Assembly: GCA_903904855.1 (NCBI GenBank)
Contig: CAIVEH010000072.1
Location: forward strand, 1-64,000
Length of the DNA: 64,000 nucleotides
From: an uncultured Bacteroidota bacterium
Lineage (GTDB): Bacteria; Bacteroidota; Bacteroidia; Chitinophagales; Chitinophagaceae
Direction: 5' to 3'
A program made the position numbers and the translations under genes. Under the pieces are notes generated by a model, which was not told the origin of the DNA, did not search any database, and worked only from the letters and a program-made list of their open reading frames with translations. Below, piece after piece: positions 32,361 to 63,146 of the stretch (position 1 is its first letter; every line of letters begins with the position of its first letter).

Positions 32361-33608
32361 ATGGCAAACATAACACCATTTAAAGGCCTCAGGCCTAAAA
32401 AAGAATTAGCTGAGCAAGTGGCTACACTGCCTTACGATGTAGTGAGCGTGGCGGAGGCGAGGGAGTTTAAAAATAGCCCGTACAATTTTTACCATGTTAC
32501 ACGCTCGGAAATAGACCTGCCTGATGATATTGATGTGCATAGTATGCAGGTGTATGAAAAGGCAAAGGAGAACCTGGAATCCTTTATCAGCAGCAATGTT
32601 ATGGTTAGGGACAGCAAACCTTGCTATTACATTTATGAACTGGTGATGGATGGACGCTCACAGACAGGCTTGTTATGCGGCTCATCGGTAGATGACTATA
32701 ACAATGGTATTGTAAAGAAACACGAATTCACTAGGCCGGAAAAGGAGCAGGACCGTATAAATCATATTGCTACCACCGGCGCTCAGACAGGCATAGTGTT
32801 CCTTGCCTATAATGATTGTGAAAGTGTGCAGCAAATTATTGATGACTGGAAGAAAAACCATCAGCCTGAAAATGATTTTACAGCTCCCGATGGTATAAGG
32901 CATACTTTCTGGGTGGTTGATGATGAAGAAAAAGTAGCGGCCATTACACGCAATTTTGCAAATGATGTGCCCTGCACCTATATAGCCGATGGTCACCATA
33001 GGGCTGCATCTGCTGCAAGGGTTTGTAAGGAGATGAGAGAGAGCAATTATGCGGCTGATAGCAGTGATCCGTTTAATTATTTTGTCACCTGCATCTTCCC
33101 TGCCAGCCAGTTGCAGATAATGGATTACAACAGGGTGGCCAAAGATCTGAATGGCAGAACGGCGGATGAATTTATACGGGCAATCAGCAATGATTTTGAG
33201 ATATTAAAGATTGGTGATCCGGCATTTAAACCTGCACATCTGCATGAGTTTGGCATGTATCTGGAAGGTTGCTGGTATAAATTGGAAGCAAAAAAAGGTA
33301 CTTATACCAGCGATCCTATTGGGATATTGGATGTTACAATTTTGCAGCAAAATGTACTGGATAAATTGCTGGACATTAAAGACCCGAGAGTAGATAAAAG
33401 GATTGATTTTATTGGTGGTATAAGAGGTATGGGTGCATTGCAGAAAAGGGTGGATAATAAGGATGCCGCTGTTGCTTTTTCTTTGTACCCTGTAACCATA
33501 AAGCAGTTATTCGATATCGCCGACAGCGGCAATGTAATGCCTCCTAAAAGTACATGGTTTGAACCAAAGCTAAGGGATGGACTGGTGGTATACCTGGTAA
33601 ACCACTGA
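32361..33608 (+). CDS. DUF1015 family protein
   Basis: 415 residues. It starts MANITPFKGLRPKKEL and contains the family landmarks LPYDVVS, NFYHVTRSE, VKKHEFTRPEKEQDRINHI (about 113-131) and IADGHHRAASAARV (about 210-223), whose DGHHR pattern suggests a metal or phosphate site. DUF1015 has no settled function that I can state. It often travels with serine-biosynthesis genes, as here behind serC, so a role linked to serine metabolism is plausible (inference). No signal peptide or membrane segment. Confidence 0.85.
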   Translation: MANITPFKGLRPKKELAEQVATLPYDVVSVAEAREFKNSPYNFYHVTRSEIDLPDDIDVHSMQVYEKAKENLESFISSNVMVRDSKPCYYIYELVMDGRSQTGLLCGSSVDDYNNGIVKKHEFTRPEKEQDRINHIATTGAQTGIVFLAYNDCESVQQIIDDWKKNHQPENDFTAPDGIRHTFWVVDDEEKVAAITRNFANDVPCTYIADGHHRAASAARVCKEMRESNYAADSSDPFNYFVTCIFPASQLQIMDYNRVAKDLNGRTADEFIRAISNDFEILKIGDPAFKPAHLHEFGMYLEGCWYKLEAKKGTYTSDPIGILDVTILQQNVLDKLLDIKDPRVDKRIDFIGGIRGMGALQKRVDNKDAAVAFSLYPVTIKQLFDIADSGNVMPPKSTWFEPKLRDGLVVYLVNH

Positions 33609-42899: not shown

Positions 42900-43013
42900 C
42901 GTATATGATTCAGCTAATAATTTGGCAATTAACACCTTTTATGCAATTAATATAATGTTTTTGTTATCAAAATAAAGAATTTGAAAATCCGGCTTTATTG
43001 CCCTTTTTTTTCC

Positions 43014-43021
43014 TACTTTTG
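43014..43021 (+). promoter_or_regulatory. Second -7 box TACTTTTG for the second giant gene
   Basis: Exact TAnnTTTG match ending 25 nt before the ATG at 43047. It may be the main promoter, with the palindrome then lying about 115 bp upstream. Confidence 0.45.
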
Positions 43022-43046
43022 CACAATTATTGAAAAACTATTTCTT

Positions 43047-46000
43047 ATGGAGGCAAAAAACCTTTACGCAAGACATTTAATTTTAAGAAGAAACAGGATA
43101 GTTTTGGATGTATTTCCCACACTCCTGTTGATTGGCATGTTGTGGATGGGTATATCTGCTCAGGCGCAGACAACAATACAATATAGTCAGTCGTTTACTG
43201 CCGGAACATTGGCGTCACCTACAGCCTGTAATGCCTGGTCTACCTTCAGGGCATCATTAGCTGGTTATGTTTTTTCGAGTGTAACCATTAGTGGGTCTCT
43301 TGATCCTGTTGGTATTACCAATACGGATGTCATAGCTGTAAATGGAATAGCCAACGCGTTAACAACGGGTTCACCTTTTGCTTCAGGAACATGGAAGGTG
43401 GGCGGATGTTCAACAACCAATTGCGGACCAGGAAACATTGAATTAGATGTTAATGGTACCATTAGTGGTGTTCCCGCTACAACCTGCGGTTGTAACACCG
43501 GTGGTTACAGCATCAGGCCAGACTACGGCGTAGCTGGCTGGTGGGGCGGTATAGGACCTAACTGTGGAGGTGTTTCACAAACACTTACCTTGACGTTTAC
43601 TGTTCAGCCTGTAATATTTACTACTGGTACTGTAAATGGTTCAGGGGTGTTTGAGATACCAGATACTGTTTGCCAGAATTCAGGTGCTGTTTCAATAAAC
43701 TCAAAACTGACAGTGTCTGACCGTACAACACTTACTGAAACATGGACAGTTAATACAGTTCCTTCTCATGGTACGGTAAACGGTTTACCATATTCCGCTC
43801 CTTCTGGCCTTAGCGTAACTCCTGCAGGTGTTACTTATACGCCAACTGTCGGTTTCAGCGGTGTGGATTCTTTTAAAATACAGGTGAATAACGGTTCACA
43901 AACTGCAATAGCTAATATCATTGTTACAGTTAACCCATCTCCGGCTATCAGTTGCGCTGGTATCAGTTATTGCCCCGGAGGTTCCGGAACACTTACTGCA
44001 AGCGGTGCAACTACATATTCATGGGCGCCTGCTACTGCGTTATCAGCCACTACAGGCGCTTCTGTTACAGCTAGTCCTACAGTTACAACAACATATACCA
44101 TTACTGGTACTGCTGGAACTTGTTCTGGTACTACAACAGCAACAGTTACAGTAAATCCATTGCCAACAATTGGTACTACGGTAGGTTCAGGAACTGCTAC
44201 ATGTGCTGGCACAGCTACATCAATCACTGCTACCGGTGCTGCTACATATACGTGGTCTCCTTCCACAGGGTTGTCGGCCACTACAGGAACGACAGTATCT
44301 GCAAATCCTCCTTCTAACCAGACATATGTAATTGCCGGGACTTCGGCTGCTGGTTGTAGTAACACCGGCAACGTAACCGTAACAGTTAATTCATTGCCTG
44401 TAGTAAGCGGAGGTTCAAATACTTCAATATGCATTGGAAATAACACTACCCTTACGGCATCAGGGGCTAATACATATAGCTGGTCGCCTGCTGCTGGATT
44501 ATCTGCTGTTACAGGCACTAATGTGGTTGCCAGTCCTACTGCAACAACTACTTATTCAGTTACTGGAACAATTACAGCTACAGGCTGTCAGAAAACAGCA
44601 ACTGTTACTGTAACAGTAAATCCATTGCCTGCCATCAGCGGTGGTGCAAGTGTAGCAATATGTAATGGTTCATCTACTACGCTTTCTGCAACAGGTGGCG
44701 TAACTTATACATGGGCCCCATCAACCGGTCTTTCGGCTGTGACTGGTGCAAGTGTAACTGCAAATCCTTCTTCAAATACTACTTATACCATTACAGGTAC
44801 TAATGGATTGGGTTGTGTTAATTCAGGAACTGTTACAGTTACTGTTAATCCAATGCCTTTGCCAATAACTGGTAACACCCAGGTATCTACAACAATTACG
44901 ACTCAGTTAAGTGATGCCACCAGCGGTGGTACATGGACATCTTCTTTACCTGGCAATGCCACGGTTAATGCCGTTACAGGGCTGGTAAGCGGTGTGGCTC
45001 CTGGCAGCACTTTAATTACTTATGCCCTGCCTACAGGTTGCTCTGTAAACGCTACCGTTAACGTAAATGCCGCATCTGTAGGACTGAATTTCAATGGTAC
45101 ATCATCATATGTACAATTAGGAAACATTTTAACAGGTGGATCCTCATATACAAAGGAGGCATGGATCAATGTTGTATCTGTTGTATCCAATACCAATATC
45201 GTATCATCACCTGATGCTCCGTTCTATATTCAGAGTGGGCATTTGCAGGCAGCAAATAATTATTTATCTGCTCCAACCTATGTTATTGATCCAGGTACGT
45301 TCCCTACAGGGCAGTGGGTATATGTCGCTGTATCTTATGATCAGCCAAGTAATACTATGAAGCTGTACCGTAACGGAATCCTCGTTGCTACTAACACTAC
45401 TTCAGCTTCTTATACTACTGGTTCCTTGCAGTTAGGCGCTTATTCAGGTGGATATCTGAACAACGAAACTATGGATGAAGTGCGTGTTTGGAATATTGCA
45501 AGGACTCAGGCACAGATCCAGGCGAGCATGAATTGTGATATTCCTCAGCAGGCAAACCTTATTGCTTATTATCGTTTTGATGAAGGCGTTGCCGGAGGTA
45601 ATAATACTAATAAGGCATATGTGCTGGATTATAGTGGTAATGCAAACTGTGGAACGCTGAATGGTTTCTCATTGACAGGTCCTGGTTCTAATTTTGTAAC
45701 TGGTGCTGTTGGTAACTGCGCTCCGATAACTATTTCCGTGCCGGCTGCAAATAATAGTGGTACTGCTGTTGTCTGCGTTGGTCAAACTTCAACTTTGAGC
45801 AATAGTGTACCTGGCGGTACCTGGACATCTGGCAATACCGGTGTTGCTACTGTTAATTCTTCAACAGGCGTTGTTTCTGGAGTTACCGGAGGCACTGCCA
45901 ATATCACTTATACTTTAAATTGCGGTACAGCTGTGACTACGGTTACTGTTAATCCTGCTCCTTCACCTATTACTGGTACCCCGCTTGTATGTGCAGGTGG

Positions 46001-49000
46001 CGGAACAAGTACTTTAAATGATGGTACTACTCCTGGCACATGGAGCAGCAGCAACGGTAATGCTACAATCGGAGCTGTTTCAGGTATACTTACCGGTGTT
46101 ACACCAGGTAATTCTACCATAACCTATACTTTAACGAACGGTTGCTTCGTTACAACAACTGCAACCATTAACACATTGCCGGTTATTACAGGAAGCCCAA
46201 ACACTACACTTTGTTATGGACAGTCTGCGACATTAACTGCTGGTGGCGGCACAACTTATTCATGGGCGCCTTCAGTTGGTTTGTCTTCAACTTTCGGTCC
46301 ATCAGTAGTTGCAACCCCAACTGCTACAACAACTTATACTGTGACCGGTTCTAATGCAACCGTTCTCACTTACAGTCAGGCATTTACCGGTGGCGTTGTT
46401 GCAACCACTCAATGTACAGCATGGACTACATATCGTGCTTCTTTAATCAATGGACTGAACTATACAGGATTTACAATAAGGGGTAGCAATAACACTTCGG
46501 GCTTTACATGTACCGATCCATCAGTAGCAACTGCAATTGCCAATGCCCTGAGGACTGGCACCGCTACCAATTTGACATCAGATGGGCATACATGGTTTGT
46601 AGGCACAGGTTGTGGCGGCGGATGCGGCGGCTCAGGCGGCGGTACTGCTGTTGAGTTAGCTGTTGACCAGGGAACTTGTGCTTGCGGATCGATTGCTGCT
46701 GTAAGGCCTGGTATCAATAATACCAATTGGGGTGGTATCAGTGGGCCAACGTGCGGCGCTGGTTCTCAGACATTAGAAGTAGATTTTTATGTAGCTGGCT
46801 GTTCAAATACAACGACAATTACGGTATCAGTTAATCCTCTGCCTGTTATTGGTACTTCAGTTGGTTCTGGCACTGCAATCTGTAATGGTTCATCTACTGC
46901 AATTACTGCTACCGGCGCCGATACCTATTTCTGGTCTCCAGCTACCGGTTTAGATGTTACAACAGGCGCAGTTGTTAACGCAAATCCTACTACCGATCAG
47001 TCTTACCTGATAACTGGTACCGATATTAACGGATGCGTAAATACTGCAAATGTTACAGTGACAGTTAATCCGTTACCTGATGCAATTTCAGGTACTCATA
47101 ATTTCTGTTTACTTTCTACAATTGCTCTCGGTGAAACAACATCTGGTGGAACATGGAGCAGCACCAATACATCTGTTGCTACTGTTGATCCGGCTACTGG
47201 TGTGGTTTCTGGTATTGCGACAGGTGTTGATACAATTATCTATACTTTGCCTACTACCTGTTCTGTTTTTGTTTCCGGAACTGTTAATCCGGTATCTGAT
47301 GTAACGGTGTCTCCATTACTTGGACAGACAGTTTGTAACGGCGCTTCTACTACGCCTGTTACCTTCAGCGGTTCCATAGCTGGTACTGTTTTTGACTGGA
47401 CCAATACACTTGCTTCAATTGGTATTCCTGCTTCTGGTTCAGATACTATTTTCTCAGTGTCTGCTATTAATACATCATATGTTTCAGATACAGGATTTTT
47501 CACTGTAACTCCGGTTAATAACGGATGCCCTGGTTTACCTGCATATTTTTATATAGCTGTCAATCCAACTCCGGATGTATATGCATCAAACCCTCCACAG
47601 ACTTTGTGTAACGGAACTATGACTGCTCCTGTTACATTTGCAGGCGATGTAGATGGTACGATCTTTACCTGGACAAACTCCAATTCCAGTATTGGAATTG
47701 GCGCTACCGGTACAGGAGATATTGCTTCTTTTACGGGTATCGATACATCAGCTCAGATTCTGACTGCAGTAATTACTGTTAACACGAGTGCAGCTGGTTG
47801 TACAGGAAGTTCTAATAGCTTTACAATTACAATAGATCCTACTCCGTTGCTTTTAGGTTCATTGACTTCAACTATTTGCGACAATTCACTGTTTAATTTT
47901 ATTCCTTCATCTTTAACTTTGGATTCGACATTTATATGGTCCAGGGATTCAGTAACTGGTATCACTGCATCAGCTGGTTCAGGAATAAACAATACCAATG
48001 AATATCTTGATAATACAACACTGGCTCCGATAAATGTAACCTATGTTTATGTTGTTCAGGCTAATGGTTGTACAGATACTGCTAATATTGTGGTTACTGT
48101 TAATCCAACACCGCATCTGACTACTACACTTACTCCTTCAGCTGTTTGCGACAGTACACTCTTCACTTATGGTTCTGCCAGTACTATTTCATCTGGTGTA
48201 ACCTTTACATGGAGCAGGGCATCAGTTGCTGGTATCAGTAATCCTGCAGCAAGTGGTATTGACACAATCAGGGAATATCTTGTAAATACTACGCCAGAGC
48301 CTTTGGCTGTTCCGTATGTTGATACTTTAACCTATTTCGGTTGCCAGTATACTGAAGTAGTAACTGCAACTGTTAATCCAAAACCTGTGTTGACCACACC
48401 TGTTACTTTATCTCAGGTATGCGACAGCACTACAATTACTTATGTACCAGCAAGCGCTACTACAGGCACAACATTTACCTGGAGCAGAGCCGCAATCGCT
48501 GGTAATCCGGCAGCAAACGGTGTAGACACAATTCACGAAAGGCTGGTGAACACTACCACTGCTTCAGTAATTGTAACCTATGTGGATACGCTTAAGGCTA
48601 ACGGATGCTGGAATACTGAGAATGTAAACATTAGAGTAATGCCTACTCCAATGTTAAGCAGTTCACTAACACCTGCTTCCATCTGCGACAGCGTTATATT
48701 CAATTATACACCTGCCAGTGCTACAGCCGGTACAGGATTTACATGGGTTCGTCCGTTTATTCCTGGAATATTAAATGCACCGGGAAGTGGAATTGGTAAT
48801 CCTAATGAGCAGCTGATCAATACTACCAATGACAATCTGGATGTTACTTACATTTATACGCTCAATGACAGCGGTTGTACAAATGTTCAGGATGTTGTAG
48901 TGAGAGTTCATCCAACACCGGTATTATCTTCTCCGCTTACATCTGTTGTTTGTAGCGGTACTCCATTTGTTTATGGACCAACCAGCTTTACTGCAGGTAC

Positions 49001-49964
49001 TACCTTCAGTTGGAAACGCGGTCTGATAACAGGAATTACACCTGCTACAGATTCAGGCAGCGGAGTAAGTATTACTGAAACTCTGGCTAATGGTACATCT
49101 GCTCCTGTAGTTACTGGTTATCAGATTAAGCTCACTGCCAATACTTGTTCTCATCTTGAAAACATAACAGTGACAGTTAATCCTACTCCGGCAGCAGCTC
49201 CGATAACAACTTTTGCTGATGATCCGATTTGTACAGGTACAATGTATCAGAATTTCGGTACATCAGGTCTTGCTCCTGCAGGTGAATCTTACAATTGGAG
49301 CGCACAGAATGCTGTTATTAATGCACATGGCAGCGGTAACCAGTATATCCTTGTAACCTTTAATACTCCTGGACCTGCTTCAGTAATCCTTACTACTGAT
49401 ATTAATGCATATGGTTGCAGAAATTACAGCGCAAAAACATATACTGTTTCAAGCAGTATTGCCCAGACACCTCAGGTTGTTTATTTCAACGGACAGTTTG
49501 TATGTCTTCAGAATAACCTGACGCACTACCAGTGGGGGTATGATGACGCTATCACGCTCGATTCATCTCTGATTGCTGGTGAGGTTAATCCTAACTATTT
49601 CAATAACAGTCCGGACCTTACTTATAAGTATTACTGGGTAGCTACAACCGATTCTGGTGGTTGCACTCAGAAAACATATTACAACGTACCTACCGGAATT
49701 ACCAATATTAATGCTCCTGTGGCTACTGATATCAAGGTTTATCCAAACCCTGCTAATGAAGAATTGAATGTGGTATTCAACGATGCTGTTACTGGTAAAC
49801 TGAGTGTTGAAGTTGTAAATATACTTGGGCAGAAACTGATGAGTTCAGAGGTTGCAGATCATAAAGCGATGCTGAATGTGGCATCTGTTGCTTCAGGCAC
49901 CTATTTGGTAGTATGTTATAGTAATGGCGTTAAGATTGGCGCTGTAAGATTTGTTAAAAACTAA
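43047..49964 (+). CDS. Giant T9SS-secreted adhesin-like protein (PKD-like repeats, LamG, sorting domain)
   Basis: 2,305 residues from the ATG at 43047; a TTG at 42981 is also in frame but would put 22 residues before the start. A long signal region ends near GISAQA (residue 39). Domains in order: a Cys-rich module (about 41-188); an Ig-like unit; four PKD-like units of about 75 residues ending in VNPLP; a LamG/concanavalin-like domain (about 679-891, FNGTSSYVQLGN ... ETMDEVRVWN ... AYYRFDEG); Big2-like units; a PKD-like unit interrupted by a second Cys-rich module (about 1104-1251); more PKD/Big2 units; seven PKD-like units of about 86-92 residues ending in NPTP; and a type A sorting domain (VYPNPANEELNV ... 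IGAVRFVKN). Inferred role: T9SS-exported adhesin or motility adhesin, comparable in layout to SprB-class proteins but without sequence proof. A barrel-OmpA gene follows by 25 bp. Confidence 0.9.
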   Translation: MEAKNLYARHLILRRNRIVLDVFPTLLLIGMLWMGISAQAQTTIQYSQSFTAGTLASPTACNAWSTFRASLAGYVFSSVTISGSLDPVGITNTDVIAVNGIANALTTGSPFASGTWKVGGCSTTNCGPGNIELDVNGTISGVPATTCGCNTGGYSIRPDYGVAGWWGGIGPNCGGVSQTLTLTFTVQPVIFTTGTVNGSGVFEIPDTVCQNSGAVSINSKLTVSDRTTLTETWTVNTVPSHGTVNGLPYSAPSGLSVTPAGVTYTPTVGFSGVDSFKIQVNNGSQTAIANIIVTVNPSPAISCAGISYCPGGSGTLTASGATTYSWAPATALSATTGASVTASPTVTTTYTITGTAGTCSGTTTATVTVNPLPTIGTTVGSGTATCAGTATSITATGAATYTWSPSTGLSATTGTTVSANPPSNQTYVIAGTSAAGCSNTGNVTVTVNSLPVVSGGSNTSICIGNNTTLTASGANTYSWSPAAGLSAVTGTNVVASPTATTTYSVTGTITATGCQKTATVTVTVNPLPAISGGASVAICNGSSTTLSATGGVTYTWAPSTGLSAVTGASVTANPSSNTTYTITGTNGLGCVNSGTVTVTVNPMPLPITGNTQVSTTITTQLSDATSGGTWTSSLPGNATVNAVTGLVSGVAPGSTLITYALPTGCSVNATVNVNAASVGLNFNGTSSYVQLGNILTGGSSYTKEAWINVVSVVSNTNIVSSPDAPFYIQSGHLQAANNYLSAPTYVIDPGTFPTGQWVYVAVSYDQPSNTMKLYRNGILVATNTTSASYTTGSLQLGAYSGGYLNNETMDEVRVWNIARTQAQIQASMNCDIPQQANLIAYYRFDEGVAGGNNTNKAYVLDYSGNANCGTLNGFSLTGPGSNFVTGAVGNCAPITISVPAANNSGTAVVCVGQTSTLSNSVPGGTWTSGNTGVATVNSSTGVVSGVTGGTANITYTLNCGTAVTTVTVNPAPSPITGTPLVCAGGGTSTLNDGTTPGTWSSSNGNATIGAVSGILTGVTPGNSTITYTLTNGCFVTTTATINTLPVITGSPNTTLCYGQSATLTAGGGTTYSWAPSVGLSSTFGPSVVATPTATTTYTVTGSNATVLTYSQAFTGGVVATTQCTAWTTYRASLINGLNYTGFTIRGSNNTSGFTCTDPSVATAIANALRTGTATNLTSDGHTWFVGTGCGGGCGGSGGGTAVELAVDQGTCACGSIAAVRPGINNTNWGGISGPTCGAGSQTLEVDFYVAGCSNTTTITVSVNPLPVIGTSVGSGTAICNGSSTAITATGADTYFWSPATGLDVTTGAVVNANPTTDQSYLITGTDINGCVNTANVTVTVNPLPDAISGTHNFCLLSTIALGETTSGGTWSSTNTSVATVDPATGVVSGIATGVDTIIYTLPTTCSVFVSGTVNPVSDVTVSPLLGQTVCNGASTTPVTFSGSIAGTVFDWTNTLASIGIPASGSDTIFSVSAINTSYVSDTGFFTVTPVNNGCPGLPAYFYIAVNPTPDVYASNPPQTLCNGTMTAPVTFAGDVDGTIFTWTNSNSSIGIGATGTGDIASFTGIDTSAQILTAVITVNTSAAGCTGSSNSFTITIDPTPLLLGSLTSTICDNSLFNFIPSSLTLDSTFIWSRDSVTGITASAGSGINNTNEYLDNTTLAPINVTYVYVVQANGCTDTANIVVTVNPTPHLTTTLTPSAVCDSTLFTYGSASTISSGVTFTWSRASVAGISNPAASGIDTIREYLVNTTPEPLAVPYVDTLTYFGCQYTEVVTATVNPKPVLTTPVTLSQVCDSTTITYVPASATTGTTFTWSRAAIAGNPAANGVDTIHERLVNTTTASVIVTYVDTLKANGCWNTENVNIRVMPTPMLSSSLTPASICDSVIFNYTPASATAGTGFTWVRPFIPGILNAPGSGIGNPNEQLINTTNDNLDVTYIYTLNDSGCTNVQDVVVRVHPTPVLSSPLTSVVCSGTPFVYGPTSFTAGTTFSWKRGLITGITPATDSGSGVSITETLANGTSAPVVTGYQIKLTANTCSHLENITVTVNPTPAAAPITTFADDPICTGTMYQNFGTSGLAPAGESYNWSAQNAVINAHGSGNQYILVTFNTPGPASVILTTDINAYGCRNYSAKTYTVSSSIAQTPQVVYFNGQFVCLQNNLTHYQWGYDDAITLDSSLIAGEVNPNYFNNSPDLTYKYYWVATTDSGGCTQKTYYNVPTGITNINAPVATDIKVYPNPANEELNVVFNDAVTGKLSVEVVNILGQKLMSSEVADHKAMLNVASVASGTYLVVCYSNGVKIGAVRFVKN
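43168..43611 (+). repeat. Cys-rich module, copy 1 (N-terminal)
   Basis: About 147 residues opening IQYSQSF and carrying C.AWSTFRASL, AIANALTTG, CGCNTGGYSIRPDYG, WWGGIGPNCG and SQTLTLTF. The same order of motifs recurs in copy 2 at 46357-46796. I know no named domain for it. The conserved cysteines suggest disulfides in an exported protein. Confidence 0.7.
46357..46796 (+). repeat. Cys-rich module, copy 2, inserted inside a PKD-like repeat
   Basis: About 147 residues opening LTYSQAF with C.AWTTYRASL, AIANALRTG, CACGSIAAVRPGI, NWGGISGPTCG and SQTLEVDF. The preceding text ends TTTYTVTGSNA and the following text starts GCSNTTTITVSVNPLP. Joined, these would make one normal PKD-like unit, so the module sits between the last two strands of that unit. 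Confidence 0.7.
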
Positions 49965-53375: not shown

Positions 53376-53546
53376 TTATCCACCGTAATCCACAGGTTAT
53401 ACACAGCTTTTTGTGGAAATAGGGCATGAAATAGGCCTGAAATGGGCTACACGAGCGGCTTTCACCCACATTTGCCATGTGTGGATAAATATGTGTAATT
53501 ATTTTTGTGTTTATTGGTGGGAAATTGTGTTATTTTGTGTGGAAAA
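53376..53546. promoter_or_regulatory. Cluster of DnaA-box-like 9-mers upstream of mraZ
   Basis: TTATACACA (53397-53405) fits TTATNCACA. TGTGGATAA (53480-53488) is the exact complement of TTATCCACA. One-mismatch copies are TTATCCACC (53376-53384), TAATCCACA (53386-53394) and TGTGGAAAA (53538-53546). The first three start at 53376, 53386 and 53397, i.e. 10 and 11 bp apart, about one helical turn. The stretch after the cluster is AT-rich. Confidence 0.6.
53500..53507 (+). promoter_or_regulatory. -7 box TATTTTTG for mraZ and the dcw cluster
   Basis: Exact TAnnTTTG match, giving a leader of about 50 nt to mraZ at 53562. The exact DnaA box at 53480-53488 lies just upstream, inside the promoter, so DnaA bound there could affect transcription (inference). 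Confidence 0.5.
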
Positions 53547-53561
53547 TAATATTCTATTAAA

Positions 53562-54029
53562 ATGACAAGTTTTCTCGGTGAATATGAAGTAGCAATGGAC
53601 GCCAAAGGGCGTTTCCTGCTGCCATCGGGAATACGCAAGCAAATGGCCGATGAAACCGGGGGGCAGTTTGTAATAAAACGCGATTTTGAATCTTGTCTCA
53701 CTATATACCCACTCGATACCTGGAAAGCAATAAGTGATAAAATAAATAAGCTCAACGACTTTAAGCCAGAAGTAAGGGAATTTAAAAGATTGTTTCTGAA
53801 CGGAGCCACCATTGTGGAGCTGGACAGTGCCGACAGACTATTGGTACCCAGACAATTACTGGAATATGCTGGTTTGAAAAAGGATGCAATATTGGCGGCG
53901 CAAGGCAATAAACTGGAGTTGTGGGATAAAGATACATTTAATAAGTATATCGCCCAAAACTCCGTGAATATGAGCAGGCTTGCAGAAGATGTGGCGAGAG
54001 ATTTCGGGAACCCGTTTGAAAATATGTAA
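53562..54029 (+). CDS. mraZ: MraZ, dcw-cluster transcriptional regulator
   Basis: 155 residues with two SpoVT/AbrB-like halves. The first contains FLGEYEVAMDAKGRFLLPSG (residues 4-23) and the second ATIVELDSADRLLVPRQLLEYAGL (about 82-105); the D.KGR...P and D...R...P patterns are the family signature. MraZ is a ring-forming DNA-binding protein that in other bacteria controls its own dcw cluster by binding repeats upstream of itself. I do not see the classical TGGGN repeat set in the leader. It is the first gene of the cluster; mraW starts 1 bp after its stop. Confidence 0.93.
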   Translation: MTSFLGEYEVAMDAKGRFLLPSGIRKQMADETGGQFVIKRDFESCLTIYPLDTWKAISDKINKLNDFKPEVREFKRLFLNGATIVELDSADRLLVPRQLLEYAGLKKDAILAAQGNKLELWDKDTFNKYIAQNSVNMSRLAEDVARDFGNPFENM

Positions 54030-54030
54030 C

Positions 54031-54936
54031 ATGGCAGAACCCGGTTTTTACCACACAACAGTTCTTTTACAGGAGGCAGTCGATGGTTTGGCAATAAAGC
54101 CCGATGGGGTCTATGTGGATGCAACTTTTGGTGGTGGCGGGCATAGCAGGGCGATATTGAATCAGTTGGGGCCAGCAGGAAAACTAATTGCTTTCGACCA
54201 GGATGCCGATGCCTGGAAGAACAAACCGGATGATGACAGGCTGATTCCGGTTACTGAAAATTTTAAATACCTGCGGCGTTTTTTACGGTTGCATGGACAT
54301 ATGGAGGTGGATGGAATATTGGCAGATCTGGGAGTTAGTTCTTTTCAATTCGATACAGCAGAACGTGGGTTCTCTATTCGGTTTGATGGTCCGCTGGATA
54401 TGAGGATGGATATACGCAGTGAGTTAACAGCGGCAAAAGTGTTGCAAACTTACAGCGAGCTGCAACTGCATCAGTTATTTGAGCAATATGGCGAAGTAAG
54501 GAACTCAAAGCAACTGGCAAAGCATATAGTTACCCATCGCAAAGGCGGCGGGGTGCAGAGTATAGAAGGGCTTAAGGCTATGCTGGGGCCGGTGATAAGG
54601 GGAAACCCTATGAAGTACCTGGCACAGGTTTTTCAGGCGCTGAGGATAGAGGTGAATGATGAGCTGGGTGCTCTGAAAGAGTTTCTGGCGCAGGCGGCAG
54701 TTAGCTTAAAACCTGGAGGCCGACTATGTGTGATCACGTTTCACTCACTGGAAGACCGGATAGTGAAACATTATATAAAGCGTGGCAGATGGGATGAAGC
54801 GGGGGAATATGAGGAACAGATAAAGCCACCACTGAAACCTGTAATTCCTAAACCTATTGAACCTACAGATGAAGAGACAAAAAGAAATCCCAGGGCAAGG
54901 AGCGCGAAGCTGAGAATTGCAACTACCAACTCCTGA
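54031..54936 (+). CDS. rsmH: 16S rRNA (cytosine-1402-N4)-methyltransferase
   Basis: 301 residues (MraW/RsmH). The ATG at 54031 gives MAEPGFYHTTVLLQEAVDGL, the usual start; an upstream TTG at 53980 would run through the mraZ end. The SAM-binding motif is VDATFGGGGHSRAIL (about 29-43). Further signatures are DLGVSSFQFDTAERGFSIR (about 100-118) and the C-terminal RLCVITFHSLEDRIVKHYIK. It methylates N4 of C1402 in 16S rRNA. The mraZ-mraW pair and the ftsL-like gene after 53 bp are standard dcw order. Confidence 0.95.
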   Translation: MAEPGFYHTTVLLQEAVDGLAIKPDGVYVDATFGGGGHSRAILNQLGPAGKLIAFDQDADAWKNKPDDDRLIPVTENFKYLRRFLRLHGHMEVDGILADLGVSSFQFDTAERGFSIRFDGPLDMRMDIRSELTAAKVLQTYSELQLHQLFEQYGEVRNSKQLAKHIVTHRKGGGVQSIEGLKAMLGPVIRGNPMKYLAQVFQALRIEVNDELGALKEFLAQAAVSLKPGGRLCVITFHSLEDRIVKHYIKRGRWDEAGEYEEQIKPPLKPVIPKPIEPTDEETKRNPRARSAKLRIATTNS

Positions 54937-54989: not shown

Positions 54990-55355
54990 ATGAATAACGA
55001 GGACCAGATAATCCAGCAGCAGGAAGTACTCTCACCGGCACAACGGGTGAGGAACGACTGGCGGTCGCTGGTAGAGAAGGTATCCTACAAAGCAATAGTA
55101 AATAATATCCCATTCCTTGCTTTCCTGGTTTTGTTATGTGTTATATACATCAGCAATAACCACAGGGCGCTTGAAATGCAACGGGAGCTGAATGCAAAGC
55201 ATAAAGCGCTGAAGGAATTAAGATGGAAATACATGGATACCAAGTCGCAGCTGATGTTTGTGAAAACGGAAACACAGGTGATCAAAAGGGCAGAAGGAGT
55301 GGGGTTAAAGCCTTCGTTGTTGCCGGCATATAAGATCAAAACCCCCGGCCCCTGA
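54990..55355 (+). CDS. ftsL: FtsL-like division protein
   Basis: 121 residues. A short cytoplasmic part (MNNEDQIIQQQEVLSPAQRVRNDWRS) precedes one transmembrane helix at about residues 40-58 (IPFLAFLVLLCVIYISNN), followed by a coiled-coil-like stretch (ALEMQRELNAKHKALKELRWKY..). This is the FtsL layout, and its position between mraW and ftsI supports the call; sequence alone would be weak. FtsL bridges the FtsQB complex and FtsWI in the septal machinery. It is shorter on the periplasmic side than I would expect for a protein with an LZ domain of full length. Confidence 0.75.
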   Translation: MNNEDQIIQQQEVLSPAQRVRNDWRSLVEKVSYKAIVNNIPFLAFLVLLCVIYISNNHRALEMQRELNAKHKALKELRWKYMDTKSQLMFVKTETQVIKRAEGVGLKPSLLPAYKIKTPGP

Positions 55356-55458
55356 TTGGGAGTGCGTTGGAGTTAAGATTTCGGCAGTGGGGCGTTGTTG
55401 AGCTGGTAAGTTGAAGGTAATATTTAAAAAGTTAGAGGGTTTATAAATACTAAGTAAA

Positions 55459-57564
55459 GTGGCAAAGAAAGAGGGCGATGTAAAGAAGGACATAAGGTTC
55501 AGGGTGTATATCGCCTTTACATGCATCTGCCTGTTGGGAATTGCTGTGATGGTTAAAGCCTCGCTTATTGTATTTAAAGAGGGACCAAAGCTGAAGGAGT
55601 TGTCGCAGGAGATGCATACCCGGTTTGATACACTGATTGCAGAGAGAGGCAATATTTATACAGAAAAGGGCGTGTTGCTGAGTTCTTCCATACCTGAATT
55701 CGAAGTGCATATTGATTTTTCAGTGATTGACTCGGGGCTGTTTGCAAAGAATATTGATTCACTCTGCAGTTGCATGGCTTCCCTGTTTAAAGACAAATCA
55801 GCCTATCAGTACAAGGAAGATTTTGTAAAGGCTTACAACGACGAGAACAAATACTACCTGCTGGGCAGAAAACTGAAATACTACCAGTACGAAGCCCTGC
55901 GCACTTTCCCCATTTTTAATAAAGGCAAAGGCTATGGCGGGTTTATTGAGGATATAAACGAGAAAAGGGAGAACCCTTATAAAATGCTGGCCTACCGCAC
56001 CATTGGCGTATTCAGGGATACCAATGTTTCGGGTCTCGAAGCAACCTACAACAAGGATCTGGTTGGTGAAAATGGCAGAAGGGTAGTGCAGAAAAGTACC
56101 GGCAATGTATGGGTGCCTATAGAAGGATCGGAAGTAGACCCGATAAACGGGCATGATATCGTTACCACACTGGATATTAATATTCAGGAGGTAGCCGAAC
56201 ATGCCTTGCTGAGTATTCTTCAGAAATATGAGTGCCTTTATGGTACTTGTATTGTGATGGAAGTAAACACCGGCAAGATCCGCACCCTGGTAAATCTTGG
56301 CCGTCAGCCAGACGGCAGCTACTGGGAAGATTTCAACTATGCCATGATCCCTACTGAGCCCGGATCTACTTTCAAACTGGCTACATTGCTTTCTCTGCTG
56401 AATGATAAGCTCATAAATGTAGACCAGATCGTGGATGCAGAAGGTGGCGCCATAAGGTTTGGCAACAGGATTATGAAAGATTCGCACCTCGGCCTGCATG
56501 CTATGCCAATATGGAAAGCTTATGCCGAATCGAGCAATGCAGCGCTGGCTAAACTGGGATACACATACTATAAAGATAATCCATCGAAGTATGTGCAGCA
56601 CCTGAAAGATTTTCATTTGGACAGGCCTACAGGTATTGATCTGCTAGGTGAGCGGCGCACGCACATTATCATGCCGGGTACTCCGGAATGGAGCGCTACA
56701 ACACTGCCTTGGATGGCCACTGGCTATGGTGTGCTGGTATCGCCGCTGCATACCTGTATGCTCTATAACTCTATTGCCAACAAGGGCAGGATGATGAAAC
56801 CTTACCTGGTGAGCGCAATAAAGGAATACGGGAAAGAAGTGAAAAATTTCGCACCAACAGAATTAACCCAGGTTGGCGACTCAAGCGTAATCGCGCAATT
56901 GCTGAAATGCACACGCGCTGTGGTTACTGAGGGCACAGCCAAAGGCATAGAGTCGCCCTATTATACCATAGCGGGCAAAACTGGTACCGCACAGGTAGCA
57001 GATAAAGGAATCAGGTATACAGATGGTGTATACCAGGGATCATTTGTAGGGTTTTTGCCTGCCGATGAGCCAAAGTATACCATCTGTGTAGTAATACGTA
57101 CCAAGCCGCATTCTGCAGCTTATTATGGTGGTGCAATCGCAGCTCCTGTTTTCAGGATGGTGGCCGATAAGATTTTCTCTGAGAATATGGGGGCATGGGA
57201 AGCGCCTTTAGATAGTCTTGCAAAGATGGGCACCGCCTTTATGCCTGCAAAAGCTGCCACAGGCAGCAGCTATGAGGTTTTACTTCATGCTATTGGCAAA
57301 ACAGTGGCTATGCCGGAATATAATACCAATTCGCTGCTGCAACTGGTAACAGATACAACCAGGAACCTGGTAATACAACCTAAAAAACTATACAGGAATG
57401 TAATGCCCGACCTGACAGGTATGAGTCTGAAAGACGCGGTATATATGCTGGAGACAAGCGGGATGCAGGTGCGTATTCAGGGTAAGGGTAAGGTGAAAGT
57501 GCAATCCGTAGCGCCGGGTTCTGCTATTGTAAAAGGACAAAATATTTTACTTCAATTAAGCTGA
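55459..57564 (+). CDS. ftsI: Septal peptidoglycan transpeptidase (FtsI/PBP3) with PASTA domain
   Basis: 701 residues, GTG start (55459). One membrane segment lies at about 16-34 (VYIAFTCICLLGIAVMVKA). The PBP dimerisation domain follows (RGNIYTEKGVLLSSSIPEFEVHIDF). The transpeptidase motifs are Ser303-Thr-Phe-Lys306 (in EPGSTFKLAT), SSN at 358-360 and KTG at 507-509 (in AGKTGTAQ). One PASTA-type domain closes the protein (VMPDLTGMSLKDAVYMLETSG, from about 640). It cross-links septal peptidoglycan with FtsW. The stop TGA overlaps the murE ATG by one base (TGATG), so the two are coupled. About 100 bp separate it from ftsL. Confidence 0.93.
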   Translation: MAKKEGDVKKDIRFRVYIAFTCICLLGIAVMVKASLIVFKEGPKLKELSQEMHTRFDTLIAERGNIYTEKGVLLSSSIPEFEVHIDFSVIDSGLFAKNIDSLCSCMASLFKDKSAYQYKEDFVKAYNDENKYYLLGRKLKYYQYEALRTFPIFNKGKGYGGFIEDINEKRENPYKMLAYRTIGVFRDTNVSGLEATYNKDLVGENGRRVVQKSTGNVWVPIEGSEVDPINGHDIVTTLDINIQEVAEHALLSILQKYECLYGTCIVMEVNTGKIRTLVNLGRQPDGSYWEDFNYAMIPTEPGSTFKLATLLSLLNDKLINVDQIVDAEGGAIRFGNRIMKDSHLGLHAMPIWKAYAESSNAALAKLGYTYYKDNPSKYVQHLKDFHLDRPTGIDLLGERRTHIIMPGTPEWSATTLPWMATGYGVLVSPLHTCMLYNSIANKGRMMKPYLVSAIKEYGKEVKNFAPTELTQVGDSSVIAQLLKCTRAVVTEGTAKGIESPYYTIAGKTGTAQVADKGIRYTDGVYQGSFVGFLPADEPKYTICVVIRTKPHSAAYYGGAIAAPVFRMVADKIFSENMGAWEAPLDSLAKMGTAFMPAKAATGSSYEVLLHAIGKTVAMPEYNTNSLLQLVTDTTRNLVIQPKKLYRNVMPDLTGMSLKDAVYMLETSGMQVRIQGKGKVKVQSVAPGSAIVKGQNILLQLS

Positions 57565-59036
57565 TGAGGCAACTAAACGACATACTGGCTGGCATAGACC
57601 ATATTGTGGTAAAGGGCAACCTTGACCATGATGTTACTGGTTTGCACATCGATTCCCGGAAGGTGACTCCGGGCAGCATATTCATTGCCGTAAAGGGTTC
57701 TGTTACCGACGGGCATGATTATCTGGAGAAAGCTGTGGAGAATGGCGCTGCAGTAGTGATTATCGAAAATGCGGTGGTAGTCAGGGTGCTTGACATACCC
57801 GCTACATTTATCGTTGTAAAAGACAGCGGTGCAATTGTGGGTCTGCTGGCCAGTGCTTTCTATGATCATCCATCCAGGTCGCTGAATGTGGTAGGGGTAA
57901 CCGGTACCAACGGCAAGACGACTACTGCAACCCTCTTGTATCAGCTATATGAGCAGATGGGGCATAAGTGCGGGTTGTTGTCTACAGTTCAGAATAAAAT
58001 TCATGATCAGACGGAGGCTTCTACCCATACTACACCAGATGCGATATCTGTACATGAGTTGCTGAGCAGAATGGTTGATGCCGGCTGTGAGTATGCATTT
58101 ATGGAGGTGAGTTCGCATGCGGTTCACCAGCATCGTATCGCAGGTATAAAATTTGCCGGTGGTTTATTTACCAATATCACACATGATCACCTGGATTATC
58201 ACAAAACATTTGATGAATATATACGGGTAAAGAAAAGCTTTTTTGATGGCCTGCCAGAAGGCGCATTTGCCCTGACCAATGCCGATGATAAGCGAGGTAT
58301 TGTGATGCTGCAGAATACCAAAGCCTCTAAGAATACCTACAGCCTTAAAATGCCGGCTACCATTAAGGGTAAGGTAATGGAAAACAACCTTACCGGGCTG
58401 GTAATGATAGTGGATGGGGTGGAAGCCCACTTCAGGATGATAGGAACATTTAATGCTTATAACCTGCTTGCAGTTTATGGTGCGGCAATCTTACTGGGTG
58501 CCGATAAAATGGATGTACTTGCGGTAATGAGCGGATTAAGGGGAGCGGCAGGGCGTTTTGAAACCTACATGTCGCCAAAGGATAAAATACTGGGCATAGT
58601 GGATTATGCTCATACCCCCGATGCGCTTATCAATGTACTTGCTACCATTAATCAGTTGCGCACACAGGGGCAGCAGTTGTTTACAGTGATAGGCTGTGGC
58701 GGAGACAGGGATAAAACAAAACGGCCTGTTATGGCTGAAGTAGCCTGCGAACACAGCGATAAAGCAATACTCACAGCCGATAACCCAAGGAGTGAAGATC
58801 CTGAGGTGATACTGAATGAAATGGAAGCTGGGCTGAATGGGCCACAAAAAAGGAAGAGCCTGAGAATAACAGACCGACGGGAAGCTATTAAAGTGGCATG
58901 CACATTGGCACAACCCGGAGATATAGTGCTGGTGGCAGGCAAGGGGCATGAAAACTACCAGGAAATAAAGGGAGTAAAACATCATTTTGATGACAAGGAA
59001 ATATTAACTCAGGCATTCGAAACATTGAATAAATAA
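57564..59036 (+). CDS. murE: UDP-MurNAc-L-Ala-D-Glu:meso-diaminopimelate ligase
   Basis: 490 residues of the Mur ligase fold. The P-loop [11 protein letters not shown] (111-121) binds [11 protein letters not shown] and [13 protein letters not shown] (about 155-190) follow the family. The DNPRSEDP stretch (about 405-412) is the motif associated with meso-diaminopimelate specificity, so the added third residue is probably meso-A2pm. GKGHENYQE near the end is typical. It acts in the cytoplasm after MurD and before MurF. It overlaps ftsI by one base and mraY follows after 8 bp. Confidence 0.95.
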
Positions 59037-59044
59037 AGGCATTT

Positions 59045-60316
59045 ATGCTGTACTATCTGTTTACCTACTTACGCGATACTTTTCACCTGGCCGGCGCCGG
59101 AGTGTTTAATTATATCACATTCCGGGTAGCTATGGCCATAATGCTTTCATTGGTCATATCTATGGTAATGGGTAAAAGGCTCATTGCTTTCCTGCAGTAC
59201 AAGCTGATAGGCGAAACAGTGCGGGATCTGGGACTGGCAGGAGAAGCACAGAAGAAGGGAACACCTACGATGGGCGGCCTGATTATCATTGCGGCAATCC
59301 TTATTCCTACTTTATTGTTTGCAAGAGTGCTCAATGTATACATTGTTCTGATGCTGGTATCTACTGTGTGGCTGGGTTGCGTCGGGTTTCTGGATGATTA
59401 TATTAAAGTGTTTAAGAAAAATAAGGAGGGGCTTGCAGGCAGGTTTAAGATAATGGGCCAGGTAGGACTGGGGATAATTGTTGGCGTTACCATGTACTAC
59501 AATAACCATGTGGTGATCAGCAGGGAAATAACTGGCGGACATAAAGGAGCTTTTAATGCGGCTGAGAAGTTGGAGCCGGGTGGGTCTTCCAGAAAAGATG
59601 AAAATGGCAAAGTACATGAATATGTCAACATCCGGACTGCAACCACCACTATACCATTCGTAAAGTCACATGAACTTAGGTATGAAAAGATTGCAGAAAT
59701 TTTCGGGGTAAAATATGTAGATATTACCACCCCCATACTTTATATACTTTTTGTGATCTTCATTATTGTAGCCGTATCCAATGGCGCCAACATTACTGAT
59801 GGTGTTGATGGCCTGGCAACGGGAGTATCTGCAATAATAGGTGTTTGCCTTGGTATTTTCGCTTACGTTTCCGGTAACTACTTTTTTGCTGGCTACCTGA
59901 ATATAATGGACATACCCAACCTGGGAGAGCTGTCTATATTCATAGGCGCTTTTATCGGAGCCTGTGTGGGTTTTCTGTGGTACAATGCCTATCCTGCCCA
60001 GGTGTTTATGGGAGACACAGGAAGCCTTGCATTAGGTGGTATAATAGCATCACTCGCCATTATAGTGCGTAAGGAACTGCTCATTCCTATCATCTGCGGT
60101 ATTTTCCTTGTAGAGAATGTATCGGTAATGCTACAGGTATGGTATTTCAAGCGGACAAAGAAAAAATATGGCGAGGGGCGAAGGATTTTTCTGATGTCGC
60201 CCTTGCATCACCATTATCAGAAACTGGGTTATCATGAATCGAAAATTGTAACCCGCTTCTGGATTGTAGGGATCATACTGGCCATAATGAGTATAGTAAC
60301 ATTAAAAATGCAATAG
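59045..60316 (+). CDS. mraY: Phospho-MurNAc-pentapeptide translocase
   Basis: 423 residues, multi-pass inner-membrane enzyme that makes lipid I on undecaprenyl phosphate. Key positions: Asp117-Asp118 in [37 protein letters not shown] and the HHH stretch in [11 protein letters not shown] near the C-terminus. It is about 60 residues longer than the usual 360; an extra loop (about 160-225: [44 protein letters not shown]) carries the excess, as in other Bacteroidota homologues by my recollection. Its stop TAG overlaps the murD GTG start by one base. Confidence 0.95.
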
Positions 60317-61671
60317 TGAAAGGAAACAATCAACGCCTGGTGATATTAGGGGCCGCTGAAAGCGGTGTGGGCGCTGCATTGCTGGGAAAACAGAAAGGCT
60401 GGCAGGTATTTGTGAGCGATGGAGGTAAAATAAAGGATCAGTTCAGAAATGACCTGGTTAAATATGAAATAGAGTTTGAGGAAGGTGGTCATACAGCTGA
60501 GAAAATACTCAATGCTGATTGCCTGGTGAAAAGTCCCGGAATCAGTGATAAGGTGGAGATAATGAAGAAAGTAAGGAGTTCGGGGATTGAGGTGTGCAGT
60601 GAAATAGAATATGGTTACAGGTATAAGGGAGATAGCCGCATAATAGCCATTACCGGAAGTAATGGCAAAAGCACTACTACCAAGCTTACATGGCATGTGC
60701 TTAAACAAGCTGGATATGATGTGGCTATGGTAGGTAATATAGGCTACAGTTTTGCAAGGCAGATAGCTGAGCAGCCCTGTGAGTGGTATGTAATGGAAGT
60801 GAGCAGTTTCCAGTTGGATGATATTCATTTGTTCCGGCCCGATATAGCCGTGCTACTGAATATAACACCAGATCACCTGGACAGGTACGATTACAAATTT
60901 GAAAATTATGTGGCTTCCAAATTCAGAATAACACAGAATCAAAATATTACAGACCACTTTGTTGTCAACCAGGACGATGAAGTTATAAAAGAATATCTGG
61001 CAACTCACTTAGTTCACGCTAAAAAAATTTTTTTCACAATGAACGAAACTAACCCGGACAATGAAGGTGGCTCAATCAGTGGTAGCCGGTTATATGTCCA
61101 GATTGAAGGAGACACAATGGATATGTCAATTCACGACCTGGCAATTAAAGGTAAGCACAACCAATATAATAGTATGGCAGCGGGAATATCAGCACGCATA
61201 GCAGGCGTAAGGAAGGAAAAGATAAGGGAAAGCTTTATGGGCTTCGAAGGGCTTGAGCACAGGCTGGAGTTTGTTGCCACGGTAAGGGGTGTAACATTTA
61301 TCAATGACAGCAAAGCTACAAATGTCAATTCGGTGTGGTTTGCATTGGAGAGTATGAAAAAACCGGTAATCCTCATTTTGGGCGGACAGGATAAGGGTAA
61401 CGATTATACTGAAATCATGGCGCTGGTTTCTGAAAAGGTTAAAGCGATTATTTGCCTTGGCGCTGATAACAAGCCGATTCATGATGTTTTTGATTCTGTA
61501 GTGGATACAATTATTGATACAAACATTGCAGCTGATGCTGTTCATGCAGCCTACTCGCTCGCTGAAAACGGAGATGTTGTTTTGTTATCGCCTGCATGTG
61601 CCAGTTTCGATTTATTTAAAAACTATGAAGACCGTGGCAGGCAGTTTAAAGAAGCAGTAAGGAATCTGTAA
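60316..61671 (+). CDS. murD: UDP-MurNAc-L-alanine:D-glutamate ligase
   Basis: 451 residues, GTG start overlapping the mraY stop (TAGTG). The N-terminal UDP-binding domain opens RLVILGAAESGVGAALLGK. The ATP P-loop ITGSNGKSTTTKL lies at about 112-124, with MEVSSFQLDDI (about 156-166) and NITPDHLDRYDYKFENY (about 176-192) following. The C-terminal domain has FINDSKATNVNSVWFAL and LLSPACASFDLFKNYEDRGRQF. It adds D-Glu to UDP-MurNAc-L-Ala. A 134-bp gap separates it from ftsW. Confidence 0.95.
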   Translation: MKGNNQRLVILGAAESGVGAALLGKQKGWQVFVSDGGKIKDQFRNDLVKYEIEFEEGGHTAEKILNADCLVKSPGISDKVEIMKKVRSSGIEVCSEIEYGYRYKGDSRIIAITGSNGKSTTTKLTWHVLKQAGYDVAMVGNIGYSFARQIAEQPCEWYVMEVSSFQLDDIHLFRPDIAVLLNITPDHLDRYDYKFENYVASKFRITQNQNITDHFVVNQDDEVIKEYLATHLVHAKKIFFTMNETNPDNEGGSISGSRLYVQIEGDTMDMSIHDLAIKGKHNQYNSMAAGISARIAGVRKEKIRESFMGFEGLEHRLEFVATVRGVTFINDSKATNVNSVWFALESMKKPVILILGGQDKGNDYTEIMALVSEKVKAIICLGADNKPIHDVFDSVVDTIIDTNIAADAVHAAYSLAENGDVVLLSPACASFDLFKNYEDRGRQFKEAVRNL

Positions 61672-61750
61672 GCCGTTTGCAGTTTACAATTGGCAATTAA
61701 ATGAAGAATAGAATAGTTACCGGGTATTTGGATTTAGGGATTTTTACTTT

Positions 61751-61795
61751 AGACTATATACTAAAGACTTCAGACTTAAAATAGACTTTAGACTT
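61751..61795 (+). repeat. Short AGACTT direct repeats in the murD-ftsW gap
   Basis: The hexamer AGACTT starts at 61765, 61772, 61783 and 61790, with AGACTA at 61751 and the longer string AGACTTTAGACTTAAAA at 61783-61799. It lies just upstream of ftsW, whose start codon is at 61806. No -7 box is seen within it. Function unknown. Confidence 0.6.
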
Positions 61796-61805
61796 AAAAA
61801 AAGAC

Positions 61806-63146
61806 ATGGCAGGTAGAATGCAGCAAATACTGAAAAAAACGAAGGGCGACCAGGTAATCTGGGGCGTAGTGCTCGTGCTTTCGTTTATCAGTTTGCTCGC
61901 TGTATATAGCTCTACCGGATCACTGGCCTACCGCATGGAAAAAAACTCCAACTACTACCTGGTTAAACAGGTTATGGTTCTTGGCCTTGGGTTGCTGATA
62001 ACTTATTGGGTACATAAAATTAACTACACCAAATTCGCAAGGGTTGCAGTAATATTATACCTGCTGAGCCTGCCATTGCTGATTTATACTTTATTCTTCG
62101 GCACCAGCCTGAATGAAGGTAGCCGGTGGATAAGGCTCCCCGTTATTAACCTTACTTTCCAGACATCCGACCTGGCCAAGCTGGCCTTGTTTATGTTTCT
62201 GGCGCGTATACTAAGCATGAAGCAGGCAGTGATCAAAGACCTGAGAAAAGGTTTTGTTCCTGTGCTGTTGCCTATGTTGTTTACCTGCGCATTAATAGCG
62301 CCTGCAAATCTTTCCACAGCATTAATGCTCGGTATTACCTGCAGTATTCTCTTCTTCATAGGCCGCGTTCAGGTAAAACACCTTCTGCTGCTTTTTGTAG
62401 TTGGCCTTATGGGCGTTTCTACGCTCTTTGTGGTTTCAAAATTAACGGGTTTCGGCAGGGCAAAGACATGGGAAAAACGTATTCAGGATTTTGCGGGCGG
62501 TAAGAAAAAGGAAGCCAAGCCCGAAGATGATTACCAGGTGCAGCAGGCTAAAATAGCAATAGCCAATGGCGGTATCACTGGTAGAGGTCCGGGCCGCAGC
62601 CTTCAGAAGAACTTCCTGCCGCATCCTTATTCTGACTTTATTTTTTCTATAATCATAGAAGAGTATGGATTGGTAGGCGGTGGAGTTTTGATGTTGATGT
62701 ACCTGTTGTTCCTGTGGCGAAGCATCCTTATTTTCAAGAGGTGCCCGTTCGCTTTTGGTGCATTCCTGGCTGTTGGGTTGAGCATAACACTGGTTTTCCA
62801 GGCAATGCTGAATATGGCTGTGAATGTCCACCTGGTGCCTGTTACCGGTCTCACGCTGCCAATGGTAAGTATGGGTGGTTCATCAATTTGGTTTACCAGT
62901 ATCGCCATAGGAATAATACTTAGCGTAAGCAAGTATGTGGACGAAATGGAAGGCGAAAAGAAAAGCAATGCAAAGAAAGCCGCAGAGGCATTGCAGGTGG
63001 AAGAAACTTGTGAGCAGGAGCCCGAAACAGTGAATGAGGCAATAAATGAAGAAGTGGCAATTGAAGCATTAAAGACACCAGTAAAGCCAGAAAGAAAACC
63101 AAGGAAGCAAATAATAAAAGGAGATACGCCGATACCGGCGATATAA
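61806..63146 (+). CDS. ftsW: Septal lipid II polymerase FtsW (SEDS family)
   Basis: 446 residues. About ten hydrophobic segments, the first at about residues 17-35 (VIWGVVLVLSFISLLAVYS). SEDS signatures: FQTSDLAKLALFMF (about 118-131), APANLSTALMLG, the catalytic Asp277 in PYSDFIFSIIIEEYG, and NVHLVPVTGLTLPMVSMGGSS. SEDS proteins polymerise glycan strands together with FtsI. The C-terminal 70 residues are Glu/Lys/Ala-rich and predicted disordered (VEETCEQEPETVNEAINEE and a Lys/Arg-rich end), longer than in E. coli FtsW. Placement in the cluster favours FtsW over RodA. murG begins 7 bp after the stop. Confidence 0.92.
   Translation: MAGRMQQILKKTKGDQVIWGVVLVLSFISLLAVYSSTGSLAYRMEKNSNYYLVKQVMVLGLGLLITYWVHKINYTKFARVAVILYLLSLPLLIYTLFFGTSLNEGSRWIRLPVINLTFQTSDLAKLALFMFLARILSMKQAVIKDLRKGFVPVLLPMLFTCALIAPANLSTALMLGITCSILFFIGRVQVKHLLLLFVVGLMGVSTLFVVSKLTGFGRAKTWEKRIQDFAGGKKKEAKPEDDYQVQQAKIAIANGGITGRGPGRSLQKNFLPHPYSDFIFSIIIEEYGLVGGGVLMLMYLLFLWRSILIFKRCPFAFGAFLAVGLSITLVFQAMLNMAVNVHLVPVTGLTLPMVSMGGSSIWFTSIAIGIILSVSKYVDEMEGEKKSNAKKAAEALQVEETCEQEPETVNEAINEEVAIEALKTPVKPERKPRKQIIKGDTPIPAI

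Follow-up and report, generated by a model that had tools for sequence, protein, structure and literature searches.

The window analysed here, a stretch of 64,000 nucleotides from a Chitinophagaceae-like bacterium, carries a dcw cluster with mraZ, rsmH and further genes of cell wall synthesis and division (Table 1). Upstream of mraZ, three tandem boxes of the type recognised by DnaA, the replication initiator (sites b, c and d), follow each other at steps of 10 and 11 bp, leaving gaps of 1 and 2 bp, and all of them face mraZ; a fourth tandem site (a), located 10 bp further upstream, is found in many relatives and is degenerate in the window. Between this array and the gene lie a partly conserved spacer stretch, an inverted exact DnaA-type box embedded in a longer '-80' element and, directly upstream of mraZ, phased GTG repeats with units at 53507, 53517, 53527 and 53537, which probably constitute the MraZ operator.

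Table 1. Elements and genes of the mraZ region, with positions in the window.
Feature	Position	Strand	Basis
Tandem site b, TTATCCACC	53376..53384	+	DnaA-type box, fixed-geometry comparison
Tandem site c, TAATCCACA	53386..53394	+	DnaA-type box, fixed-geometry comparison
Tandem site d, TTATACACA, equal to the exact TTATNCACA	53397..53405	+	Box search
Whole three-box array	53376..53405	+	Sole own-genome match of the pattern at <=3 mismatches
Partly conserved spacer stretch, consensus CTgAAA..c..TACaG..aaGg.TTT	53437..53462	+	18 promoters of equal geometry
'-80' element, TGTGGATAAATATGT (read on +)	53480..53494	-	Nearly invariant over 15 nt
Inverted exact DnaA-type box, TTATCCACA	53480..53488	-	Inside the '-80' element
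Four GTG units at 10-bp steps, probable MraZ operator (includes the fifth 9-mer)	53507..53546	+	Sequence pattern
Fifth 9-mer of the preliminary description, TTTTCCACA	53538	-	End unit of the GTG repeat
mraZ	53562..54029	+	PF02381, E 4e-32
rsmH (mraW)	54031..54936	+	PF01795, E 2e-91
Other dcw genes: ftsL-like, penicillin-binding transpeptidase, murE-type ligase, mraY-type transferase, murD, ftsW-type	54990..63146	+	Pfam matches

All five DnaA-type 9-mers that a preliminary description of this DNA had listed between 53376 and 53546 were recovered, as were the intervals of 10 and 11 bp between the first three. Of these, the 9-mer at 53538 belongs to the 10-bp-phased GTG repeat, is altered in the nearest relative (L011), and should be dropped from the DnaA boxes. 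The exact box said to overlap the mraZ promoter at 53500 lies just upstream of that position, without overlap. Further, the estimate of one exact 9-mer per window by chance was too low, as 4.43 are expected and 6 were observed, a number reached in 23 of 100 shuffles; one-mismatch boxes (78) fall below the 89.9 expected, and in the whole own genome the exact TTATNCACA occurs 385 times vs 186 for the reversed pattern. Since single boxes appear at about chance frequency in the window, the test must be on arrangement: single boxes are uninformative, and the phased triplet is informative.

Conservation of the tandem array

The arrangement was evaluated by a fixed-geometry score, in which the 9-mers at offsets 0, 10 and 21 are compared with TTATNCACA over 24 scored positions. 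The sites of the array match the DnaA consensus of the lineage, and the triplet scores 22/24 vs a maximum of 18, reached 4 times, in a background of 1.62 Mb (nearly all of the same genus, both strands; left out were L053 and 16 other stretches holding or adjoining mraZ or nadA, G007 dnaA or the window tail), in agreement with the earlier statement that a phased cluster is not expected by chance. A comparison of mraZ upstream regions, proposed alongside that statement, revealed that the array is conserved in same-genus relatives: 27 of 33 promoters, the own one included, score at least 19, and the other six reach 17-18, which is within the background. These promoters represent every genome with a mraZ match among 35 of the genus and come from related genomes, hence they are not independent trials; the match is absent in G025 and G030, which are 57-59% complete, and the second mraZ matches of G018 and G007 were left out. 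Four further loci kept outside the 33 (L130, L131, L132 and L134) score 21, 21, 15 and 20, respectively. The mraZ promoter of Taibaiella chishuiensis, a cultured relative with a named strain (L138), reaches 19/24 and carries a -80-type box and GTG repeats; according to the NCBI taxonomy, Taibaiella and Flavipsychrobacter both belong to Chitinophagaceae. The arrangement exceeds chance and is conserved at the same gene.

Genome-wide occurrence of the tandem pattern

The strict pattern, defined as TTATNCACA-N-TTATNCACA-NN-TTATNCACA with at most 3 mismatches, occurs only once in the own genome (5.6 Mb), at the array upstream of mraZ. A two-box pattern was also tried and rejected; it gave 2 own-genome places, one of which was dropped for lying in coding sequence, the other being at C133:26279. 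Within the genus, the strict 10/11 pattern was found at 13 places in 11 of 35 genomes (reversed control, 0), 11 of them upstream of mraZ and 2 between dnaB and pheT (two genomes); 24 of the 35 genomes display no strict match at mraZ, looser arrays being outside this count. Steps of 10/10 yielded 4 places, 4/4 at mraZ (control, 0), and steps of 11/11 yielded 4 places, all between dnaB and pheT (reversed control, 3, all in G009).

Order-wide, 25 of 298 genomes contain the 10/11 pattern, compared with 2 of 298 for the reversed control. Besides the own genome, these are 17 genomes from other genera of the family, out of 84 (a total obtained by visual count), and 7 of 213 genomes from other families. 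Among the 17 places in other genera of the family, 10 precede mraZ and 5 precede nadA, and the remaining 2 are close to neither gene; at mraZ, 74 of the 84 genomes show no strict match, again with looser arrays outside the count. None of the 7 places outside the family is located within ~1.5 kb of mraZ, dnaB, pheT, nadA or dnaA.

Architecture of the mraZ promoter

The motif TGTGGAWAA is present in 31 of 33 same-genus promoters, ~82-102 bp before mraZ, and missing from two. Its distance from site d is exactly 83 bp in 18 of the 31 and 81-84 bp in 26; the remaining distances are 78, 93, 92, 25 and 25 bp, where 92 bp corresponds to 82 bp from the neighbouring site. The unit GTGTTATTTTGTG (at most 2 mismatches) follows TGTGGAWAA by 47 bp in 22 of the 31 promoters, by 48 bp in 2 and by 37 bp in 3, and at this tolerance was not found in 4. 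Across the 18 promoters of equal geometry, conservation amounts to 1.9 bits per base in the -80 element, 1.4 in the GTG repeats, 1.3-1.4 in sites b-d, 0.8 in the spacer, 0.65 in site a and 0.2 in the outer flank. The first 14 nt of TGTGGATAAATATGT have no copy in a background of 1.94 Mb; the conservation of this element over 15 nt, its AATATGT part included, exceeds the need of a DnaA box, and the spacer has conserved spots as well (CTGAAA and TACAG-type).

In most relatives the array is positioned 165-200 bp upstream of mraZ. In ten other-genus members of the family its start lies between -183 and -196 and its sites point towards mraZ, and the -80 box is present in 9 of the 10, either 69-71 or 80-81 bp past site d. 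Because the array-to-box distance varies in this manner, and is 25 bp in two genomes, a fixed helical phase is unsupported: in the sequences compared, the order and rough distance of array and -80 box are kept, and strict helical phase between them is not. The gene preceding the region varies by lineage, with one neighbour common to 7 of 30 loci and others shared pairwise or unshared. Outside the family, 21 order-level relatives had a mraZ match, and none of the 15 upstream regions read contained the array (three-site scores of 12-16); by eye, most of the 15 carry GTG-type repeats, and TGTGGAWAA lies nearby in 5.

Replication origin candidates

The preliminary description had also considered a replication-origin-like element at mraZ, which is unsupported, given that the GC skew keeps its sign across the gene and that a richer box cluster is located upstream of nadA. 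No skew minimum was seen at mraZ, and the turn that marks an oriC is absent there in the window, G029 and G002, and mixed or weak in G007 and G010. In the window, mraZ is flanked by positive skew to either side, the exception being a dip at 42-50 kb that matches the position of a single very long gene. For G029, 397 kb of a 460-kb contig were sampled; the 10-kb bins flanking mraZ have values of -0.125 and -0.21 before and -0.129 and -0.13 after the gene, a few bins elsewhere being near zero; the skew is negative on either side of mraZ in G002, near zero in G010, and mixed in G007, with a weak local flip at mraZ (-0.128 to +0.024). The open frame at the dip (42981-49964, 2327 aa) has by eye the appearance of a repeat-rich surface protein, and a second very long open frame spans 20673-29441 (2922 aa).

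The nadA scan covered 30 of 34 genomes with a match, and all 30 upstream regions contain 4-10 boxes (at most 1 mismatch) per 650 bp, with a mean of 6.3 vs 0.66 in the background. ACTATTA occurs in 27 of the 30, and resembles the DnaA-trio strand reported for C. difficile in the available part of PMC7561715. One such box-rich, origin-like region is L246 (G000:C39, just past nadA at 71588-72478). In contig C1 of G002 the skew turns broadly from negative to positive at 600-890 kb, with the cumulative minimum near 890 kb and nadA at 732 kb; among five further contigs, a turn at nadA was found in G029:C31, and none was clear in G000:C39, G010, G012 and G013. As the skew is clear in few contigs, the proposal of an origin at nadA depends chiefly on how dense the boxes are, on conservation and on the trio-like core. 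We regard the nadA upstream region as a candidate origin; since it is box-rich and origin-like, the mraZ array uses the motif of an origin candidate.

An origin beside dnaA was discarded after scanning 30 loci, the own-genome locus having no exact box; the dnaA loci of the sisters G007 and G014 have 2-3 boxes ~0.5 kb upstream, a cluster not common to the others. An origin at dnaB was likewise rejected, as the skew of G002 is positive on either side. The dnaB-pheT gap (30 of 33 genomes with a match scanned) contains looser arrays in some genomes, scoring at least 18 in 11 of 30 same-genus loci, with 18 in the own genome; tandem boxes were found in L294 (G000:C133, upstream of dnaB at 33172), L276, L280 and L316-L319, and in two dnaB-pheT loci an array at 11-bp steps appears as a second array or alone.

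Discussion

We interpret 53376-53405 as a DnaA-binding array that would regulate dcw transcription, a reading to which we assign a probability of roughly 0.72. The own genome encodes a DnaA with N-terminal, ATPase and DNA-binding domains (PF11638, PF00308 and PF08299). The earlier suggestion that DnaA controls the dcw cluster directly gains support from the comparison of genomes, in which the array accompanies mraZ even where a different gene lies upstream, order and orientation are kept, and the same tandem pattern recurs at the nadA candidate and at dnaB. Most likely, DnaA would bind the array and act on the dcw promoter; as to nucleotide state and direction, we infer that DnaA, probably in its ATP form, would oligomerise cooperatively along the tandem sites, and that the complex would contact the promoter as well as the inverted box, and at the promoter would either assist or oppose the MraZ that occupies the GTG repeats. 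We lean slightly to activation, because the array is far upstream. Rather than a replication origin, the array would probably be a switch through which replication affects how much division protein is supplied; this supply would track DnaA activity, like origin firing.

An origin or second origin at the locus would be in line with an intergenic box cluster and with the weak flip of the G007 skew bins at mraZ, but in the window, G029 and G002 the skew does not change sign at mraZ, which, together with the more numerous boxes and the ACTATTA core at nadA, makes such an origin very improbable. The probability of a chance cluster is negligible: single boxes do occur at chance frequency in the window, yet the fixed-geometry score and the genome-wide specificity oppose this explanation, and conservation already contradicts it. 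DnaA could also bind the array as a titration or nucleotide-exchange site that tunes initiation and does not regulate dcw, comparable to datA and DARS, the names given to DnaA titration and reactivation sites. Tandem boxes away from the origin candidate, mostly at a distance from the presumed promoter, would suit such a role, which is nonetheless rather unlikely given that the array remains with mraZ, in one orientation, in spite of the changing neighbour, and that kept distances tie it to the -80 element and the GTG repeats.

Other proteins than DnaA may be considered as the reader of the array. The conservation of the -80 element beyond the length of a DnaA box would be consistent with another regulator having a DnaA-like motif, an improbable alternative because the pattern is common to the box-rich nadA region and to dnaB. 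That MraZ itself uses the array as a further operator, in reverse orientation, is quite improbable; the idea arises from the resemblance of MraZ units (GTGG..) to reversed DnaA boxes and from the ~10-bp steps and the GTG that the array has in common with the repeats ~100 bp away. The GTG-repeat unit is not found at 53376-53405, and the diagnostic base, read on the strand that carries GTG, is a T in 92 of the 99 sites of the array vs 22 of 124 GTG units. Furthermore, the tandem pattern also occurs upstream of nadA and dnaB, and the array sites, which vary at the fifth base, have their less common variants in common with the nadA boxes (TAATCCACA, TTATCAACA and TTATTAACA).

DnaA at division genes is known, and the conserved array architecture proposed here for mraZ was not found in print. 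The available portions of PMC8203912 and PMC10532879 place DnaA at the promoter region of B. subtilis ftsL (citing Goranov et al. 2005) and at C. crescentus ftsZ; in E. coli, ftsQA contains three DnaA boxes ahead of ftsZ, with no effect under the conditions tested. As far as these portions go, the region studied here resembles B. subtilis ftsL in having DnaA sites, in our case predicted ones, at a division-gene promoter, and differs in its location upstream of mraZ and the whole dcw cluster, its tandem 10/11-bp array, its kept inverted box and its phylum; with C. crescentus ftsZ and E. coli ftsQA it would have in common the proposed initiator-division link, whereas gene and layout differ. An excerpt of PMC11317965 reports a preference of E. 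coli DnaA for paired boxes with 2-3 bp between them, and its regulon thus also displays closely spaced boxes of the same motif, although in pairs with 2-3 bp gaps instead of three or four sites with gaps of 1 or 2 bp. Arrest of initiation in B. subtilis left the levels of RsmH, PbpB (ftsL operon) and other DnaA-regulon proteins unchanged (PMC11019786, available in part), so the presence of DnaA at such a promoter may be of little consequence. Through boxes upstream of dcw, MraZ acts as a repressor of its own cluster, as stated in the accessible text of PMC8475190 (citing Eraso et al. 2014); 53507-53546 likewise consists of direct GTG repeats before mraZ, while the upstream array differs at diagnostic positions. 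The sections of PMC4447404 and PMC12371093 at hand do not mention mraZ, and among the matches listed from the open-licence literature, no description of DnaA boxes at mraZ in Bacteroidota was found.

Tentatively, and at somewhat less than even odds, a very small DnaA regulon may exist in Chitinophagaceae, with phased tandem boxes at nadA, dnaB-pheT and mraZ, in which one DnaA-oligomer signal would time origin firing, helicase supply and division-gene supply, MraZ being a second input to dcw. Whether replication initiation directly drives the expression of division genes is an old question, which becomes testable by one small mutation, since the cis-element ahead of dcw is short and conserved and has very few further strict copies.
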